From Bacteroidia bacterium (GTDB lineage: Bacteria > Bacteroidota > Bacteroidia > Flavobacteriales_D > Cryomorphaceae), in contig JAUICL010000002.1 of the NCBI GenBank assembly GCA_030427905.1, positions 1-64,000 on the forward strand: a stretch of 64,000 bases of DNA, written 5' to 3'. Numbering within the stretch: position 1 is the stretch's first letter; every line of letters starts with the position of its first letter. The position numbers were made by a program, and so were the translations under genes. Shown piece by piece: positions 1 to 6,780 of this stretch. Under the pieces are notes generated by a model. That model had not been told where the DNA came from and searched no databases. It was given only the letters and a program-made list of their open reading frames with translations.

Positions 1-519
1 GCTAATGCCGTTTCCGAGTTTGGGTAAGGCGCTGAAGTGTTTTCAAGAGTTTCAAGAAATAAAATTACAGCCCTGATCTTTTGTTCCTTTTGCATCAAGG
101 TAAAAGGAAGATGAAAAGTCAAACTTTGGACAATAGGCCTGGTCGTTGTCGATATCTGGGCCATGACCTTTTGGATGGGTTAGGGGAAGGACTTTTATCA
201 ATTTAAATGCAAAAAGGGAGCTGCGAAGCAGTGGTGACCGACCAACGGGAGCTGCGAAGCAGTGCTGACCGATAGCGTCAGTACGTCAGTACGTCATTCT
301 GAGTGCCCCGAAACCTTCGGGGTGTATCGAAGTAAAGCGACAATGGACGATTACAATTATCAATTATCAATCGTAGCGCAGCGGAGACCCCGAAGCCATT
401 TCGGGGCTGTCAATTATCCATTATCAACTGTCCATTATCCATTGTCAATCGCAGCGCCGCGCCGCGCCGACGGCAAGCCTATGGCGTCCGATGGGAGACC
501 CCGATCCCTATCGGGGCTG
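1..519. other. Intergenic region with palindromic and heptamer repeats
   Basis: No gene is supported here. A minus-strand frame is open from an ATG at 164 to the window edge (54 codons, no recognisable motif); it could be the start of a gene lying to the left, but this is weak. From 216 the region is repeat DNA: a 130-bp block that recurs inverted at 21876-21997, then CAATTATCAATTATC-type heptamers (about 345-450), then the hairpin CCCCGAT-CCCT-ATCGGGG at 499-516. That hairpin recurs at 6658-6675 and 16126-16143 and here lies directly after the stop of the glycosyltransferase that ends at 520. Confidence 0.7.
216..345 (-). repeat. Long dispersed repeat, left inverted copy
   Basis: Reverse complement of 21876-21997 with very few mismatches; the length difference (130 against 122) is one extra 8-bp unit GTACTGAC in this copy. 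It contains two copies of a CTGCGAAGCAGT motif and the palindrome CCCCGAAACCTTCGGGG. Shorter relatives of the palindromic half lie at 6877-6926. Confidence 0.85.
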
Positions 520-1815
520 TTAATCTTCCAATAGTTCAAATAATCGATAAAATACATTACGATTCGCCTCCACACTATACCGCTCCCTAACAACCACCTC
601 ACCAGCTTCCCCCAGCGCTCTTCTCAAATCGCCATCAACCAAGAGCTCCTCAAGCCTTTCCTTCCAGCCAGCATATGTTGATTCGTTGCTTTCCATCGCT
701 TCACAGATCAATCCACTCACACCATCTTCCACAATCTCCACATTCACCCCAACACCCGACACCACCGTCGGAATCCCTAACGCCATGTATTGAAGAGCCT
801 TAAAACCGCACTTTCCCTTTTCCCACTCCGTGTCAAACAAAGGCATCACCCCAATATCAATCTCCATCAAGTCAGCAATCTCCGTCTCCTTCCGCCAGGG
901 CCTGAACTCCACAAACGATGGCATCACATCCAACGCCTGATCCGCAATCAACAAAAACCGAAACGGAATCTTTTCATATACCGCCTCCAACGTCGAAAAC
1001 AACGGCTCCAGCTGTTTCAATGTACTATGCGTACCTGTCCAACCAATCGTCGGAAGACGATTGGTTGGACCCTGCACAATTCGTCCAGTGGACGGATTCG
1101 TCAGGGTCGAATGACTCCGTGACTGACCTTCAAAACTTGAATTATCTCTTTCCTTTTCATCCACCGAAGCCTTGGCGTAGGAGGACTCACACTCATTCTC
1201 ACTCTTGTCCGCCGTAGCTTTAGCGTAGGTGGAGCTTTCATCCGCCGAAGCCTTAGCGAAGGTGGGCTTGCTCTTGCTCAAACTCTTGCTCATCGCACCC
1301 AAATCTATCGTCGTCGGTACAATCTCAGTTGAATCACAAAACCGACTTGCATACGCTTCTAGATATCCATTTCCTACAACAACCGTTCTCGCCCAACCAC
1401 AAATCCTCCCAACTTTCCCATGGCTCTTCAAACTCCCAACAATCTTCGCATTCGCATCCGAACTATTCGGCAACCAAATCGCATCGTCAAAATCGTAGAT
1501 AATCGGCTTCCGCCAAACCTTTGCGACACACCACTCAAACCAAGGCGGTCCAATCGGCGTCGCCTCCCGGTGTATAAACACTATGTCGTATCCCCCAACT
1601 CGAAACAACAGAAAGAACCGCCTCAAAAATCCCCTCATTGTACTTAATACTTTGTACAAAATACTACCCCCACGGTATATAGCCGGCCACTCATCATCCC
1701 GCCAAAATCCTTCTTGCCGATACCCAAAATCCAACCCATCCAGGTACTGCTCAAACCGAAACCGCTGACTCGGAGCCTTCTTAGGGGGATAAGGACAAAC
1801 AAACAATACCCTCAT
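520..1815 (-). CDS. Glycosyltransferase (GT4-like, GT-B fold) with a repeat-derived insertion
   Basis: Probable cytoplasmic glycosyltransferase of the group 1/GT4 type, likely acting in surface-polysaccharide assembly. The N-terminal Rossmann-like half starts MRVLFVCPYPP and has YDFDDAIW near residue 107. The C-terminal half starts at LPTIGWTGTHST near 254 and has the donor-side pattern GFKALQYMALGIP near 337-349. Family members usually have a short linker between the IVPT...D strand (near 166) and the TIGW strand. Here about 80 residues intervene, including three copies of an AKA(S/T)(A/V)D(E/K) peptide encoded by palindromes that also occur between genes. I chose the ATG at 1815, which overlaps the upstream stop as TGATG; a GTG one codon earlier is possible. 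Substrate unknown. The frame is intact, so the protein may still fold with the insertion as a disordered loop. Confidence 0.85.
   Translation of the reverse strand: MRVLFVCPYPPKKAPSQRFRFEQYLDGLDFGYRQEGFWRDDEWPAIYRGGSILYKVLSTMRGFLRRFFLLFRVGGYDIVFIHREATPIGPPWFEWCVAKVWRKPIIYDFDDAIWLPNSSDANAKIVGSLKSHGKVGRICGWARTVVVGNGYLEAYASRFCDSTEIVPTTIDLGAMSKSLSKSKPTFAKASADESSTYAKATADKSENECESSYAKASVDEKERDNSSFEGQSRSHSTLTNPSTGRIVQGPTNRLPTIGWTGTHSTLKQLEPLFSTLEAVYEKIPFRFLLIADQALDVMPSFVEFRPWRKETEIADLMEIDIGVMPLFDTEWEKGKCGFKALQYMALGIPTVVSGVGVNVEIVEDGVSGLICEAMESNESTYAGWKERLEELLVDGDLRRALGEAGEVVVRERYSVEANRNVFYRLFELLED
1160..1265 (-). repeat. Three palindromic repeats inside the glycosyltransferase gene
   Basis: Three imperfect palindromes of about 25 bp lie at about 1160-1184, 1208-1232 and 1241-1264, with the form TCCGCCGAAGCCTTAGCGAA followed by GGTGG. 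In the gene's reading frame they encode FAKASADE, YAKATADK and YAKASVDE. Near-identical units occur at 3619-4135 in non-coding DNA. Confidence 0.9.
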
Positions 1816-3182
1816 CACGCAGCCAACTGATGTTTACGAAAATACTTACCCCGCTTACCCATCAAGTGCTTGTGGCGGATAATTAACAAAGCGGCGACAA
1901 AGAAGGGAACTGCGGGTATCTTATACCGCGACAATGCCCCAAAATTATACGAGCTAAACCCAACGGCAAATCCAAAGAAGATGGCGAACACCACACACAT
2001 GAGTAGCAGAGAGTCATTCGATATAAACCGATACACCTTCAGCGGCCCGACGCGTATCAGCGTGAAAACCGTTACGAGCAAGAAGATCAAACTTTCCATC
2101 GCCTGCGCAAGCATCGCTGCATTATTCACTTCCCATAGATAGGGTCGAAAATAAGTCACATTCACCGCTGCAGGGAATATCTTCAACAACCCCCGCCAAT
2201 CACTTCCATCGTACTCACCTAAGGTATAGCTAGATCCTCTTCCGTGATTATCCGCCGAATTAGCACCCTCCACATAATGCCAGTCCTGCATACTCTGAGC
2301 TGTGCTCACAAAACTATCGATCGAATACCTCGAAGAATAAATGGAAATCCAGTTTAAGGTATACACCATCCCAAATATCCCTACTCCAAGAAAAACTGGA
2401 AGGATCGCCCCTCTGATCAACCCACTTTTGATTCGATCCTTCAAATAAAGCGTCCGCCAAAGGATAATAGCTGGTGCCAATGAGATTAATACATAGGCCT
2501 TGACCACAAACATAAAATAACCAGTTACTACTATGATCAGAAGTGATCTTATCTGCCAAAACTTCCCGCTCATCACCTCGTTAATATGATAAAGGAAGAG
2601 CCCTACACAACAAAGAATCAAAGAATCCTTACTAATCCCCGACCCCCAGAATACGACCGACGGCACAAAGAGAATAGCAAAGGCCATTTCTCTCTCCATA
2701 TCAGGGAAAAATTTCACCATCAACTCGTAAAACCGCCATACCCCCCAATAGGTAAATGTTGCAATTAACAAACTCGTACTGAAATAGCTAAACCCTCCTA
2801 GGACCGTAAATATGGAAACAAAGTTCACTACAAAATATTCCCGGGGATCCTTAAAGGCCATTTGGACTACATAACTCAAGGAAGAGTATTCAACATTGAC
2901 AATCTTTCGGTTAAGTACATCGAAAAAGGTTTGTAGCCCATCTGTAATTGATTGAGCTACCAGCATGCTATCTTCGAAATACGAACGACTATCCCCTCCG
3001 TATTCGTAATAAAAAGTGTATACAAAGGCAAATGCCAATCCTCCGAGCAACTTGACGGTGAGCCCCTTAATAAACCACTTTTTATAAAGTGAATTAGATC
3101 TATAGGCCTTCTGTACCTGTATACCAAAAAACAAGCATAGCGGGAAATAGATAATCAGTAAAGCAAAATCGAGGACGCTCAA
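1815..3182 (-). CDS. Multi-pass membrane protein, possible polysaccharide polymerase
   Basis: An integral inner-membrane protein of 455 residues with roughly ten hydrophobic segments spread along its length, for example residues 5-22, around 45-60 and repeated stretches up to about 440. It ends in a short basic tail. No catalytic motif is certain; the large soluble loop in the second half (around SADNHGRGSSYT) and its position directly before a glycosyltransferase resemble Wzy-like polymerases or GT-C enzymes, which is inference. The start is a TTG at 3182 because no ATG is close and the sequence from there begins a good transmembrane segment. The stop overlaps the next start (TGATG), so the two genes are translationally coupled. 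Confidence 0.7.
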   Translation of the reverse strand: MSVLDFALLIIYFPLCLFFGIQVQKAYRSNSLYKKWFIKGLTVKLLGGLAFAFVYTFYYEYGGDSRSYFEDSMLVAQSITDGLQTFFDVLNRKIVNVEYSSLSYVVQMAFKDPREYFVVNFVSIFTVLGGFSYFSTSLLIATFTYWGVWRFYELMVKFFPDMEREMAFAILFVPSVVFWGSGISKDSLILCCVGLFLYHINEVMSGKFWQIRSLLIIVVTGYFMFVVKAYVLISLAPAIILWRTLYLKDRIKSGLIRGAILPVFLGVGIFGMVYTLNWISIYSSRYSIDSFVSTAQSMQDWHYVEGANSADNHGRGSSYTLGEYDGSDWRGLLKIFPAAVNVTYFRPYLWEVNNAAMLAQAMESLIFLLVTVFTLIRVGPLKVYRFISNDSLLLMCVVFAIFFGFAVGFSSYNFGALSRYKIPAVPFFVAALLIIRHKHLMGKRGKYFRKHQLAA

Positions 3183-3221
3183 TGAAATCAGATTACGGCA
3201 ATTGCGAAGATAGTAACCTTC

Positions 3222-3524
3222 TCAATTCAAGGATGGATCCATGTCATTTTTAGACTTCGTTGAGTGTAACACTCGCAACCACCTTCTTACATCTCGTTGT
3301 TTATAGCCGTAGTACTTACAGAATTCTTTGATGGTAACCGGACCCCGGTGCGACCCTTGTCTCATACTCTTAATCTTTTTTAGATCGCGCTGCGCAGTTC
3401 GTGCGCTCACCCTTAGCAAACGCTGCACATCCGAACTATTAATTGTAAAAAATCTCACGTTCTTATTCTTTCGGCTGGTGTATCTGTTTTCAATTACCCA
3501 GCGCCCCTGAGACTGAAATACCAA
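3222..3524 (-). CDS. Small protein with two HTH-like segments
   Basis: A basic protein of about 100 residues. Two stretches look like helix-turn-helix DNA-binding segments: SSDVQRLLRVSARTAQRDLK (about 29-48) and TIKEFCKYYGYKQRDVRRWL (about 64-83). Small double-HTH proteins of this kind are common and poorly characterised in Bacteroidota. No ATG lies near the start: the frame opens at a TTG at 3524 that touches an AGGAGG at 3525-3530, too close for a normal ribosome site, so the true start is uncertain and the gene could be 5'-truncated. It stands alone between the polysaccharide genes and a repeat tract; whether it acts on those repeats is unknown. Confidence 0.5.
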   Translation of the reverse strand: MVFQSQGRWVIENRYTSRKNKNVRFFTINSSDVQRLLRVSARTAQRDLKKIKSMRQGSHRGPVTIKEFCKYYGYKQRDVRRWLRVLHSTKSKNDMDPSLN

Positions 3525-3617
3525 CCTCCTAGAAGCATTTTATCAATATTCTAACGGAATGATCCTTAGTTTAGTATAACACCCTGTTTTCGACCCCTGC
3601 GAAGTAGCTCCCAATTC

Positions 3618-4135
3618 ATCCACCGAAGTTTTAACGTAGGTGGGTTTATCCACCGTAGCCTTGGCGAAGGTGGATTATCCACCGTATCCGCCTCCCCGCG
3701 TGCCGCCGAAGCTTTCCGCGAGCGCCGAAGCTACTCTGCGGAGGCACTAGCGGAGGAGCAGGCGGCGAAGGTGGACTCGCTCTGTCTACCGCTCTTATCC
3801 GCCGAATCCGCCTTAGGCGGAGAAGGAGCAGGCGGAGAAGGTGGACTCACTCTTGCTGTTGCTGTTGCTCTTGCTCTTGCTCTCTTGCTTTCATCCACCG
3901 TAGCCTTGGCGAAGGTGGAGCTCTCACTCTCATTCTCGCTCTTGTCCGCCGAAGTTTTAACGTAGGCGGGCTCACTCTGTCTCCATCCGCCGTAGCCTTC
4001 TCGAAGGCCGAAGTTTTCTCGAAGGCCGAAGTTTTAACGTAGGACTTAACGTAGGCCTTAGCGTAGGCGGAATACCCAATACTCAATACCCTATTCATCC
4101 GCCATATCCGCCTAAGGCGGAGAAGGCGGAATACT
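3618..4135. repeat. Array of palindromic repeats (AKASADE-type)
   Basis: At least eight degenerate copies of the roughly 25-bp palindrome found inside the glycosyltransferase gene, at about 3619, 3648, 3676, 3894, 3946, 3983 and 4037, mixed with the related CCGCCTTAGGCGG hairpin. Nested partial copies around 3983-4060 (TTCTCGAAGGCCGAAG twice) suggest repeated internal insertion or slippage. A CTCTTG/CTGTTG hexamer tract lies at about 3849-3888. Confidence 0.85.
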
Positions 4136-4234
4136 CAATACCCAATACTCAATACCCAATACCCAATACTCAATACTCAATACCCAATACTCAATACTCA
4201 ATACTCAATACTCAATACTCAATACTCAATACCC
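4130..4234. repeat. Heptanucleotide tandem repeat AATACYC
   Basis: About fifteen consecutive 7-bp units, AATACTC or AATACCC. Related 7- or 14-bp tracts are at 16146-16170, 22037-22092 and 24289-24345. Confidence 0.9.
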
Positions 4235-4517
4235 AATCCCCCATTCCCAACTCCGAACTCCGAACTCCCCATTCCCCAATCCCCATTCATCCGCCATATC
4301 CGCCTTAGGCGGAGAAGGCGGAATACTCAATACCCAACTCCCAACTCCCAACTCCGAACTCCGAACTCCGAACTCCCCATTCCCCAATCCCCATTCATCC
4401 GCCGTATCCGCCTTAGGCGGAGTAGGAGGATCCATTGTCCATTGTCAATTGTCCATTATCAATTATCAATTATCAATTCCCATTATTATACCCTTCCAAC
4501 CCCAATTCCTACCAAAC

Positions 4518-4572
4518 ACCAACTAAGGGGCAACTAAGTACCAACTAAATACCAACTAAGTACCAACTAAGG
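4518..4572 (+). repeat. Five 11-bp tandem direct repeats upstream of the cassette
   Basis: Five units in exact 11-bp register: ACCAACTAAGG, GGCAACTAAGT, ACCAACTAAAT, ACCAACTAAGT and ACCAACTAAGG. They lie about 210 bp before the first cassette gene. The period is close to one helical turn, as in protein-binding iterons; a regulatory role is inference. Confidence 0.85.
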
Positions 4573-4785
4573 GCAAGGCTCGGGGTCATTTCTTAACATG
4601 TCTAATAAACTCACCACTCAGCCATAACCGACATATACGACAACGACGATATCAACGTCAATTTGGCCACGATTGCCAACAACGCCATTCGCGTTCGGCC
4701 ATATACCAAAACCGGAATTTACCCAGTTCTATATACAAGCCGACACGGTGTCGGTGGTCAATTAAGAATTAAAAAACAATATATA

Positions 4786-5541
4786 ATGGGAACACAAACA
4801 GGAGTCGTGAGAATCCGCGGAACAGTCGGAAACCTCACATTCTCAAAAACCGAAAATGGCGACGAAGTTCGCCTGAAATCATCCCTGACGGGTGATAAAA
4901 TGAGAACGGACAGTCGCTTTAAGCGAACCCGTGAAAACTGGGCCGAGTTCGCTCGGGCCGGAAAAGCGGCCAAGCTTATTCGCAAAGCCTTCTCTACCGT
5001 GACCAAGGCCATTGTCGATAACCGAGGACACAGCCGCCTCATGGTTCAAACCATGAAAGTGGTGAAGTCCGATTCGACAAATGCGAGAGGGCATCGAACC
5101 TTCCCGCTGGGTGACCTCAACCACCTGGTCAATTACGAATTCAATGCACGTCAAGACATGGAATCATCCTTCAAGTCAATCTTTGACCTGGAGATCGATC
5201 GCGTTGGAGGTCTTGCCACCATTGATATTCCGGAACTCGTGCCCGAAGAGAACATCGCTGAACTCATCGGGGCTACCCACTTCAAACTAGTGGGCGCAGT
5301 CACCGAAATTGATTGGGAAGAGGGGACCTACCTCACGGCCAAATCGGAAACAGCCGAAATCGAGTACAACGCCAGCACCCTTGCCGCGCAGAGTATCGAT
5401 CTCAACTTCACGCCCGACTCGACCAAAACCGTTTTGGTCTCTTTCGGGATCTGGTTCTACCAGGAAGTAAATGGCAACTTCTACCTCCTTCAAGATGGTG
5501 GAAAGAGTGCCATGGCTATTGTTGGAATCGATCATCCATAG
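4786..5541 (+). CDS. DUF6266-like protein, first gene of the three-gene cassette
   Basis: A protein of about 251 residues of unknown function. The N-terminus MGTQTGVVRIRG, followed by TVGNLTFSKTENGDEVR and then a basic helical stretch with RTRENWAEFARAGKAAK, resembles the start of DUF6266-type proteins of Bacteroidota, which open with a glycine-rich GxxGNLxF pattern. The rest looks like mixed beta structure and ends near FYLLQDGGKSAMAI. The frame is open upstream to 4663, but the ATG at 4786 gives the family-type N-terminus and follows an A-rich stretch. The DUF5675 gene starts 2 bp after its stop. No signal peptide or membrane segment is seen. The family assignment is from pattern memory only. 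Confidence 0.65.
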   Translation: MGTQTGVVRIRGTVGNLTFSKTENGDEVRLKSSLTGDKMRTDSRFKRTRENWAEFARAGKAAKLIRKAFSTVTKAIVDNRGHSRLMVQTMKVVKSDSTNARGHRTFPLGDLNHLVNYEFNARQDMESSFKSIFDLEIDRVGGLATIDIPELVPEENIAELIGATHFKLVGAVTEIDWEEGTYLTAKSETAEIEYNASTLAAQSIDLNFTPDSTKTVLVSFGIWFYQEVNGNFYLLQDGGKSAMAIVGIDHP

Positions 5542-5543
5542 CC

Positions 5544-5939
5544 ATGCGTCTCACCCTCATCCGAATATACGGCCACCGGGCCACTAACGGGTATCTGATC
5601 GCAAACAAGCGAGTAATATGCAAGACCATAGAGCTCCCTTGGCGCCAGAACCAACAATCCGTATCGTGTATACCTGAAGGCGAATACAACGTAGTAAGTC
5701 GCCATAGCCCACGATTCGGACGCCATCTCTGGATACAAGGAGTCAGAGGCCGTAGGTACATCCTATTCCATCCCGCAAACGATGCCCTGCGAGAACTCAA
5801 GGGCTGCATCGCCCCGGTTATGGAACTGGTTGGAGAAGGCTTCGGAATCCGATCCAGAGAGGCCATGCGCAAATTGCTTGACCGGGTCTTGCCGGTCCTG
5901 GAAAAAGGTGAAATACTCACATTAAGTATACACGAATGA
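5544..5939 (+). CDS. DUF5675 family protein
   Basis: A 131-residue protein matching the DUF5675 pattern: an N-terminal strand MRLTLIRIYG, TIELPW, then IPEGEYNVV, the segment SPRFGRHLWIQGVRGRRYIL, and FHPANDALRELKGCIAPV. The last motif places a His about a dozen residues before a Gly-Cys-Ile, which recalls the HG...SxGCIRM active site of YkuD L,D-transpeptidases; a peptidoglycan-related activity is an inference. DUF5675 proteins are known from phages and phage-like islands as well as chromosomes. The ATG at 5544 was chosen over the longer open frame because it restores the family N-terminus and follows the previous stop by 2 bp. Its stop overlaps the next start (ATGA). Confidence 0.75.
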   Translation: MRLTLIRIYGHRATNGYLIANKRVICKTIELPWRQNQQSVSCIPEGEYNVVSRHSPRFGRHLWIQGVRGRRYILFHPANDALRELKGCIAPVMELVGEGFGIRSREAMRKLLDRVLPVLEKGEILTLSIHE

Positions 5940-6160
5940 TAAATAAGCAAAAACTGAATTTGGCACAAAGGGCCGCAAGCCCAACACCCAAATTCTTCAG
6001 AATAGTGCGCACCATTGGCCTGTCCTTGACAGCAATCGGCGGCGCCATCCTGACCGCACCAGTCGCAGTCCCTGCGCTGATCACCACCATAGCTGGCTAC
6101 GCCACTGTGATAGGCGGATCACTCGCAGCAGTTGCACAAGTCACTGTCGAAGGTGACTAA
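5936..6160 (+). CDS. Small holin-like membrane protein
   Basis: A 74-residue protein with a basic N-terminus (KQKLNLAQRAASPTPKFFR) and two closely spaced hydrophobic segments, roughly residues 24-46 and 49-68, separated by a few residues. This is the size and layout of many small phage holins, but holins have no diagnostic motif, so the name is descriptive. Its start overlaps the DUF5675 stop as ATGA, so the two are translationally coupled and probably work together. A strong terminator follows 15 bp after the stop. Confidence 0.7.
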   Translation: MINKQKLNLAQRAASPTPKFFRIVRTIGLSLTAIGGAILTAPVAVPALITTIAGYATVIGGSLAAVAQVTVEGD

Positions 6161-6175
6161 CCCGCGGTCTCAAAA

Positions 6176-6208
6176 GCCTCCTCAGATCACTCTGGGGAGG
6201 CGTTTTGT
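6176..6208 (+). terminator. Rho-independent terminator of the cassette
   Basis: An 11-bp stem (GCCTCCTCAGA with TCTGGGGAGGC, one G-T pair), a TCAC loop, then GTTTTGT. It closes the three-gene unit. Confidence 0.85.
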
Positions 6209-6342
6209 ATCCATTACAGTAAACAAGAATCACTCAGTTCCCATTAGATTGTATAATCAGAGATTAAGTCATTTCGAGTGCTCCGAAGGTCTTCGGAGTT
6301 TATCGAGAAAGACGTCAATCGATGTACTAACTTGATCCCGAT

Positions 6343-6398
6343 GCCAAGTAGCTTCGTTCCTTCACTTAAACCTAAACCTGATCAATCTGGTTGCGCGC
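6343..6398 (+). repeat. 56-bp direct repeat, copy 1
   Basis: Identical by eye to 6956-7011. It begins GCCAAGTAGCTTCGTTCC and ends CTGGTTGCGCGC; its last 21 bp recur at 15937. Confidence 0.85.
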
Positions 6399-6462
6399 AG
6401 ACACCCGCCTTAGGCGGGAAGGGGAAAAGCGCGGGCTTCAAGCTAACTGCGCAATCAGACAC
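6378..6462 (+). repeat. Dispersed element with inverted ends, copy 1
   Basis: Shares both ends with 15937-16027 while the centre differs. The left end is CTGATCAATCTGGTTGCGCG, and the right end includes GCGCGGGCTTCAAGCTAACT and then GCGCAATCAGACAC. GCGCAATCAG near the right end is partly the inverse of the left end, so the element can fold. Confidence 0.75.
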
Positions 6463-6780
6463 TTCATCATTGGACAATTTGTCTCATCCACGAAGAATCC
6501 TCCCCCTAACCCCCTTCCGCCTAAGGCGGAGAGAAGAAACCCGTTTGTAAAGATTGTTCTTCCATGGATACCCAATCGTAGCGCAGCGCCGCGCCGACGG
6601 CTAGCCTTGCTCCTCCGCTATAGCTACGGCGACACGCGGATGGCGTCCGATGGGAGACCCCGATCCCTATCGGGGCTACCCTATACCCACTACTTTCCCA
6701 CCGCTGCTCCGTATTTCCGCGATCTCTCTGTGTGCTTTGTGCGCTTTGTGGTGAATCCAAAGAGACAAATCTGCCAACTC

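Follow-up and report, generated by a model that had tools for sequence, protein, structure and literature searches.

A REP-like hairpin in the linker of a Bacteroidia glycosyltransferase gene and in genes of other bacterial phyla

Inside a GT-B glycosyltransferase (GT) gene of a Bacteroidia bacterium (Cryomorphaceae) lie three short palindromes of a kind that also fills the space between genes a few kilobases away. This raises the questions of whether intergenic repeats were inserted into a protein in frame, what exactly was inserted and what moved it. The best-known palindromes inside genes are those of Rickettsia, which have been read as an oddity of degrading genomes. Here we examine the locus within its window, that is, the whole stretch of 64,000 nucleotides that was analysed (contig JAUICL010000002.1), and in other bacterial genomes. 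The original prediction, that an intergenic palindrome had been inserted in frame, is supported.

The glycosyltransferase gene and the neighbouring array

The gene (520–1818, minus strand, 432 amino acids) is real, since Pfam Glyco_trans_1_4 and Glycos_transf_1 match its C-terminal half and 105 of 150 relatives encode a homologue. Scanning the window with the pattern CCRCCGWAGYYTTRRCGWAGGYGG, allowing up to 3 mismatches, gave eight matches where none was expected (100 shuffles), three of them in the gene and five at 3620–4010. On the plus strand the in-gene copies occupy 1161–1184 (CCACCGAAGCCTTGGCGTAGGAGG), 1209–1232 (CCGCCGTAGCTTTAGCGTAGGTGG, with a CTTGT tag in front) and 1242–1265 (CCGCCGAAGCCTTAGCGAAGGTGG); on the minus strand, in the single frame of the gene and exactly as predicted, they encode YAKASVDE (1156–1179), YAKATADK (1204–1227) and FAKASADE (1237–1260; residues 186–193).

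Alignment with 29 homologues confirms that the palindromes lie in the linker of the two GT-B halves, in extra sequence that follows PTTID (ending at residue ~172) and precedes TIGWTG (residue 256 onward). The extra linker covers approximately residues 173–250 (1066–1299, minus strand), the aligned segments breaking at query residues ~172 and ~250. The stretch compared, residues 150–275, is 126 residues long in the window protein, against 56–62 in most of the 29 and 59–93 in the closest GT family, an excess of ~68 residues over the usual homologues and of 33–67 over same-family relatives; the extra linker had thus been foreseen correctly, while its predicted size, about 80 residues, was slightly too large. 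Most homologues lack the insert and none of the 29 carries the palindrome peptides, insertion here being judged from homologues at about 50% identity and not from a strain-level empty site. This linker appears to be permissive to added sequence. A single-sequence AlphaFold model of the protein reached a pLDDT of 34 and was discarded.

Two further features of this linker can be recorded. In a homologue of family f4 (L018) the same linker holds TLRQAQGDLRYFDKLSTQGD, which we take to be the product of another dispersed repeat. Inspection of the window sequence also revealed, at the end of the linker, a perfect inverted repeat whose 15-bp arms flank a 4-nt loop (1037–1070, unstranded), in which one arm consists of the conserved TIGWTG codons (1033–1050) and the other is their inverted copy within the linker; it looks like the product of a template switch.

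The intergenic array (3620–4043, plus strand) contains copies at 3620, 3650, 3895, 3946 and 3987, together with two degenerate cores (4010 and 4028). Using blastn, the in-gene composite of palindromes and ctc-rich spacers (1145–1262, plus strand) was found to be colinear with an intergenic paralogue at 3881–4007 (plus strand), with 101 of 130 positions identical (78%, E 2e-25) across three palindromes and their spacers, the two arrays lying on the same strand 2.7 kb apart. Because the match is colinear over this length, what was copied into the gene was a composite piece of array and not one palindrome; the predicted in-frame insertion into this gene holds, with a different unit from the one proposed. 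The insert also holds hexamer and heptamer spacers. Its palindromes are spaced by 48 and 33 bp, each divisible by three, and the matching intergenic copies (starting at 3895, 3946 and 3987) by 51 and 41, which is consistent with selection for frame within the gene.

Genome-wide figures, here and below, derive from pattern searches. The genome of the window has 14 copies at two or fewer mismatches and 21 at three or fewer, in small clusters, chiefly on contigs C1, C5, C7 and C13, and short hexamer or heptamer arrays accompany the clusters on C1, C7 and C13; among the copies inspected, only those in the GT gene fall within a recognisable gene. As separate observations, degenerate heptamer arrays (ACTCAAT/ACCCAAT, CCCCATT, CAATTAT) resembling cyanobacterial STRR sequences occupy 4130–4500 of the window, and a shorter perfect palindrome, CCGCCTTAGGCGG or CCGCCTAAGGCGG, is repeated at 3808, 4108, 4300, 4408, 6405, 6517 and 22014, for the most part in intergenic positions.

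Anatomy and distribution of the hairpin

When 191 exact contexts from all loci were compared, conservation outside the 24-mer was limited to CTTGT on one side, at 59–85% per base, and A on the other, and the unit is therefore ~30 nt long and oriented, CTTGT-CCGCCGAAGCCTTGGCGAAGGCGGA. Its consensus, CTTGT-CCRCC-GWA-GC-YTTR-GC-GWA-GGYGG-A, describes an imperfect palindrome with an outer 5-bp stem (CCRCC/GGYGG), a 3x3 internal loop (GWA/GWA) and an inner GC/GC stem, and the predicted fold is likewise a hairpin, in which a 3x3 internal loop follows a CCGCC/GGCGG stem. Copies from Bradyrhizobium and from PVC/Omnitrophota show the tag clearly, while in the genome of the window CTTGT precedes only 2 of 14 copies and CAT 7 of 14. 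No Rfam model matched within window positions 1–6600.

Stem positions 11 and 14 pair in 209 of 217 contexts, where 114 would be expected if they varied independently and the kinship of copies is ignored; on the same footing positions 10 and 15 pair in 215 (196 expected) and positions 3 and 22 in 171 (130 expected). The pattern used to search genome contigs fixed positions 10 and 15 and left 11, 14, 3 and 22 free independently, so that the covariation at 11/14 and 3/22 was not built in there. The stem changes are compensatory.

As the original prediction required, the palindrome recurs in related genomes (11 of 150 within the order, 19 of 395 sampled across the phylum), counts that may include the genome of the window itself. 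The exact 25-mer was found in at least 118 genome-contig stretches, with fewer than 0.1 expected by arithmetic, and a reversed-pattern control gave no match in any of 50 genomes that jointly carry hundreds of copies. Chance origin is excluded. Record titles place the exact copies in nine or more phyla, with Bacteroidota, Pseudomonadota, Patescibacteria, Planctomycetota, Verrucomicrobiota and allies, Omnitrophota, Elusimicrobiota, Desulfobacterota, Marinimicrobia and Kryptoniota among the matches listed, and the palindrome is also present on 32 viral-contig stretches. Contamination of metagenome-assembled genomes is an inadequate source for the cross-phylum copies, because isolates are among the carriers listed (Niastella soli, Agaribacillus, Geomonas and many Bradyrhizobium). 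The highest copy numbers were 70 in Niastella soli, 55 in Tantalella, 49 in a member of the Saprospiraceae and 46 in a planctomycete.

In-frame copies in other genes

The 242 distinct copies yield 58 copy-frame combinations that fall well within long open reading frames, in all six frames; some such frames on GC-rich contigs are not proven genes, and those lacking Pfam support (e.g., L122, L133 and L225) were left out of the gene count. Comparison with Pfam and PDB entries identified carriers in four frames: TGT, PheT, ValRS, RsmH, a DUF255 protein, a histidine kinase and PriA in the frame encoding AEALAKA; RecG, GltX and CarA in that encoding FAKASAD; RarA in that encoding RLRQGFGGQ; and LptC and a GT4 enzyme in that encoding VRRSLGEGG. 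PDB homologues show gaps at or beside the motif for TGT, RecG, RarA, RsmH, CarA and GltX, and PheT, ValRS, PriA, the histidine kinase, LptC and the GT4 enzyme were identified through Pfam. The verified coding copies mostly encode two hydrophilic A/K-rich peptides. Among them four or more of the six frames are used, and the idea that coding copies share one reading frame has to be abandoned.

The clearest cases come from close orthologues. The TGT of a Doudnabacteria member (L347) has 18 extra residues (54 nt) at a clean gap in two orthologues of 82% identity, and one RarA (L335) shows a net gain of 21 nt over its relative L339 (84 and 77% identity, in two pieces), while a further RarA (L336) has two other inserts in the same gene. 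Since sister orthologues 77–84% identical have empty sites, the copies in tgt and rarA are, by these alignments, true insertions. In a third gene family a variable loop holds the palindrome together with heptamer or hexamer repeats in two members (L039 and L056), and in two others (L327 and L328) the loop is shorter and the palindrome absent. The net insert in genes ranges from 21 to ~200 nt, with no fixed 30 nt. In-frame insertion is thus general and not peculiar to the GT gene of the window. Of the suggestion that a mobile palindrome tolerates coding insertion in Bacteroidota, this generality is retained and the restriction to one phylum, given at least nine, is lost.

Several repeat families seem to share the same permissive gene sites. 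Orthologues of RarA (L336) and TGT (L348) carry repeat-like inserts, SAFVEASADRQ, HPGPLPKGEG and PSPSGRGVRGEGN, in the same or neighbouring loops. In the PheT proteins of two Patescibacteria (L132:233-2584 and L157:5509-7866) the B3/4 and B5 domains are separated by an NlpC/P60 domain, and that of L132 also has NGPSTRSGQ and DLPAGRQ, two short peptides that L157 lacks and that are probably other repeats.

Insertion, mobility and relation to known repeats

Some copies sit within other hairpins. At six Bradyrhizobium loci the 30-nt unit interrupts a known CGTC REP, as GCGNAGCGA-[CTTGTCCGCCGAAGCCTTGGCGAAGGCGGA]-AGCAATCCA, and among the Bradyrhizobium loci compared four have the REP sequence uninterrupted; the junctions can be read as 30 nt without duplication or as 29 nt with a 1-nt duplication of A, where a MITE would show terminal inverted repeats and duplicate its target site at a fixed length. 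At two loci (L109 and L176) the unit is nested inside itself. In 4.7% of 234 contexts the flanks can form 7 bp or more within 8 nt of the insert, whereas permuted flanks do so in 0.7%; for 6 bp or more the figures are 9.0% and 2.6%. In the strongest cases the insert lies 0–3 nt from the stem. The majority of copies lie outside any detectable hairpin, and the data suggest that hairpin tips are targets for a minority. Such nesting has a precedent, as some REPs are reported to lie within palindromes (PMC3733652).

Our preferred explanation, to which we assign a probability of about 0.7, is that a REP-like hairpin of ~30 nt exists in many bacteria and that a segment of a local array of it was copied into the GT gene with the frame kept. 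The element would insert mostly between genes, often within other hairpins and sometimes in coding sequence, where copies would survive only if in frame and in permissive loops. In the window, a segment of three palindromes and short spacers would have been copied into the linker joining the GT-B halves, and we propose that it was retained because it preserved the frame and added a hydrophilic loop rich in A, K, S, D and E, the added peptide being presumably neutral. The element may have spread by horizontal transfer. Mobility may be transposase-driven, and it most likely involves single-strand insertion at hairpins, effected in trans by an HUH enzyme or arising when cut tips are repaired; the DNA could move as a single strand through an HUH/Y1 enzyme of RAYT type, or hairpin tips could be processed during replication.

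It is also conceivable that we are dealing with a true REP/REPIN of one RAYT family, spread horizontally and mobilised in trans by its cognate Y1 transposase, and its anatomy, a mismatch-interrupted stem with a one-sided tag, is that of a REP. All 13 copy-bearing genomes tested carry Y1 transposases, and in Planctomycetota the terminal repeats of one RAYT clade (L302, L317 and L318, in G551 and G561) are inverted, 49–62 bp long and contain the palindrome on both sides. However, these two are the only genomes of the 13 with the motif in RAYT terminal repeats; the copies there bear another tag in place of CTTGT and look nested in a pre-existing terminal repeat, since L309 and L318 have a common outer sequence. 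None of the RAYTs examined in the genome of the window or the other 11 is flanked by the element, and a Y1 gene accompanies just one of 233 motif loci, at 3.4 kb. The two Y1 transposases of the window's genome (L068 and L069) are instead flanked by other palindromes, of the GACCCTGAAGGGGTC type and CCGCAGCATTTGCAATGCTGCGG. We therefore consider a single RAYT family doubtful, noting that CGTC REPs are likewise without a dedicated transposase (PMC3733652).

Local replication slippage, template switching or gene conversion in a repeat-rich region, with no transposition at all, would suit the colinearity over 130 bp on one strand 2.7 kb apart, the hexamer and heptamer arrays beside the palindromes, the perfect inverted copy of the TIGWTG codons and the self-nested expansions; yet alone it leaves unexplained both the single copies in tgt, recG and rarA of other phyla with empty orthologous sites and the same 30-nt sequence in many phyla, and we think it unlikely. 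Far less credible is an ancestral, functional, low-complexity linker in which the palindrome merely reflects a chance choice of codons for A/K/S-rich peptides. Same-family relatives do have somewhat longer linkers (73–93), of unrelated sequence, but the peptide is missing from all 29 homologues, the same DNA gives four different peptides in different genes, paired stem positions covary, and the DNA-level match to a non-coding array, across palindromes and spacers alike, refutes the idea. A bolder reading can be put forward only tentatively, namely that the element is a distinct mobile class, a 30-nt hairpin with conserved tag, stem and loop in at least nine phyla, which would enter hairpin tips by a mechanism outside the known transposases and essential genes in any tolerated frame, continually making protein loops.

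The predicted parallel with the Rickettsia palindromic elements (RPE-1, RPE-4 and RPE-6) is apt: these too are palindromes lying in frame within protein genes, those for translation and DNA repair among them, and in the GT, TGT, RarA, RecG and other proteins the in-frame palindrome is absent from orthologues, with empty sites in the sister orthologues of TGT and RarA. In contrast to them, the element is ~30 nt long, is spread over at least nine phyla and is read in several frames, and it differs in sequence and tag as judged through the CGTC consensus described in PMC3733652, where intragenic R. conorii repeats are equated with RPE-4 and RPE-6. With the intragenic GTAG- and CGTC-tagged REPs (Di Nocera et al., 2013; PMC3733652) it has in common a hairpin of 20–40 nt with an unpaired tag on one side, and occurrence as singletons or clusters, mostly intergenic, with some in genes (intragenic REP clusters encode 43–82 amino acids) and some within other palindromes. 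It also agrees with REPs generally as a 30-nt imperfect palindrome with a one-sided tag and up to about 70 copies per genome, the genome of the window being low-copy. CGTC REPs have a CGTC (or TGTC/CCTC) tag, a stem of 8–9 bp opening with A-T pairs and a loop of 4–5 nt, a definition that includes RPE-4 and RPE-6 (PMC3733652), whereas the element has CTTGT as its tag, an outer stem (CCRCC/GGYGG) starting with C-G pairs and a 3x3 internal loop, and lies as a separate unit inside Bradyrhizobium CGTC REPs. Nor is there a GTAG tag at the hairpin foot, CTTGT standing before the stem and A after it in the 191 contexts. By tag, the element fits neither known REP superfamily. It resembles RAYT systems in its mismatched stem and in the terminal repeats of the planctomycete clade, and departs from them in that no RAYT is flanked by the tagged element in the window's genome or the other copy-bearing genomes tested. 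Among open-licence papers we found no description of this family, its peptides or cross-phylum coding palindromes.

RAYT-REP pairs usually diverge together, and the element raises the question of what moves a 30-nt core that is nearly unchanged across phyla, unlike such pairs. It explains the recurring peptides FAKASADK, AEALAKA, RLRQGFGGQ and VRRSLGEGG, which could mislead annotation and homology searches. The same tagged hairpin interrupts genes for tRNA modification, aminoacyl-tRNA synthetases, DNA repair and metabolism in free-living and reduced bacteria of many phyla, and its gene copies provide a test set for selfish hairpins turning into protein loops.
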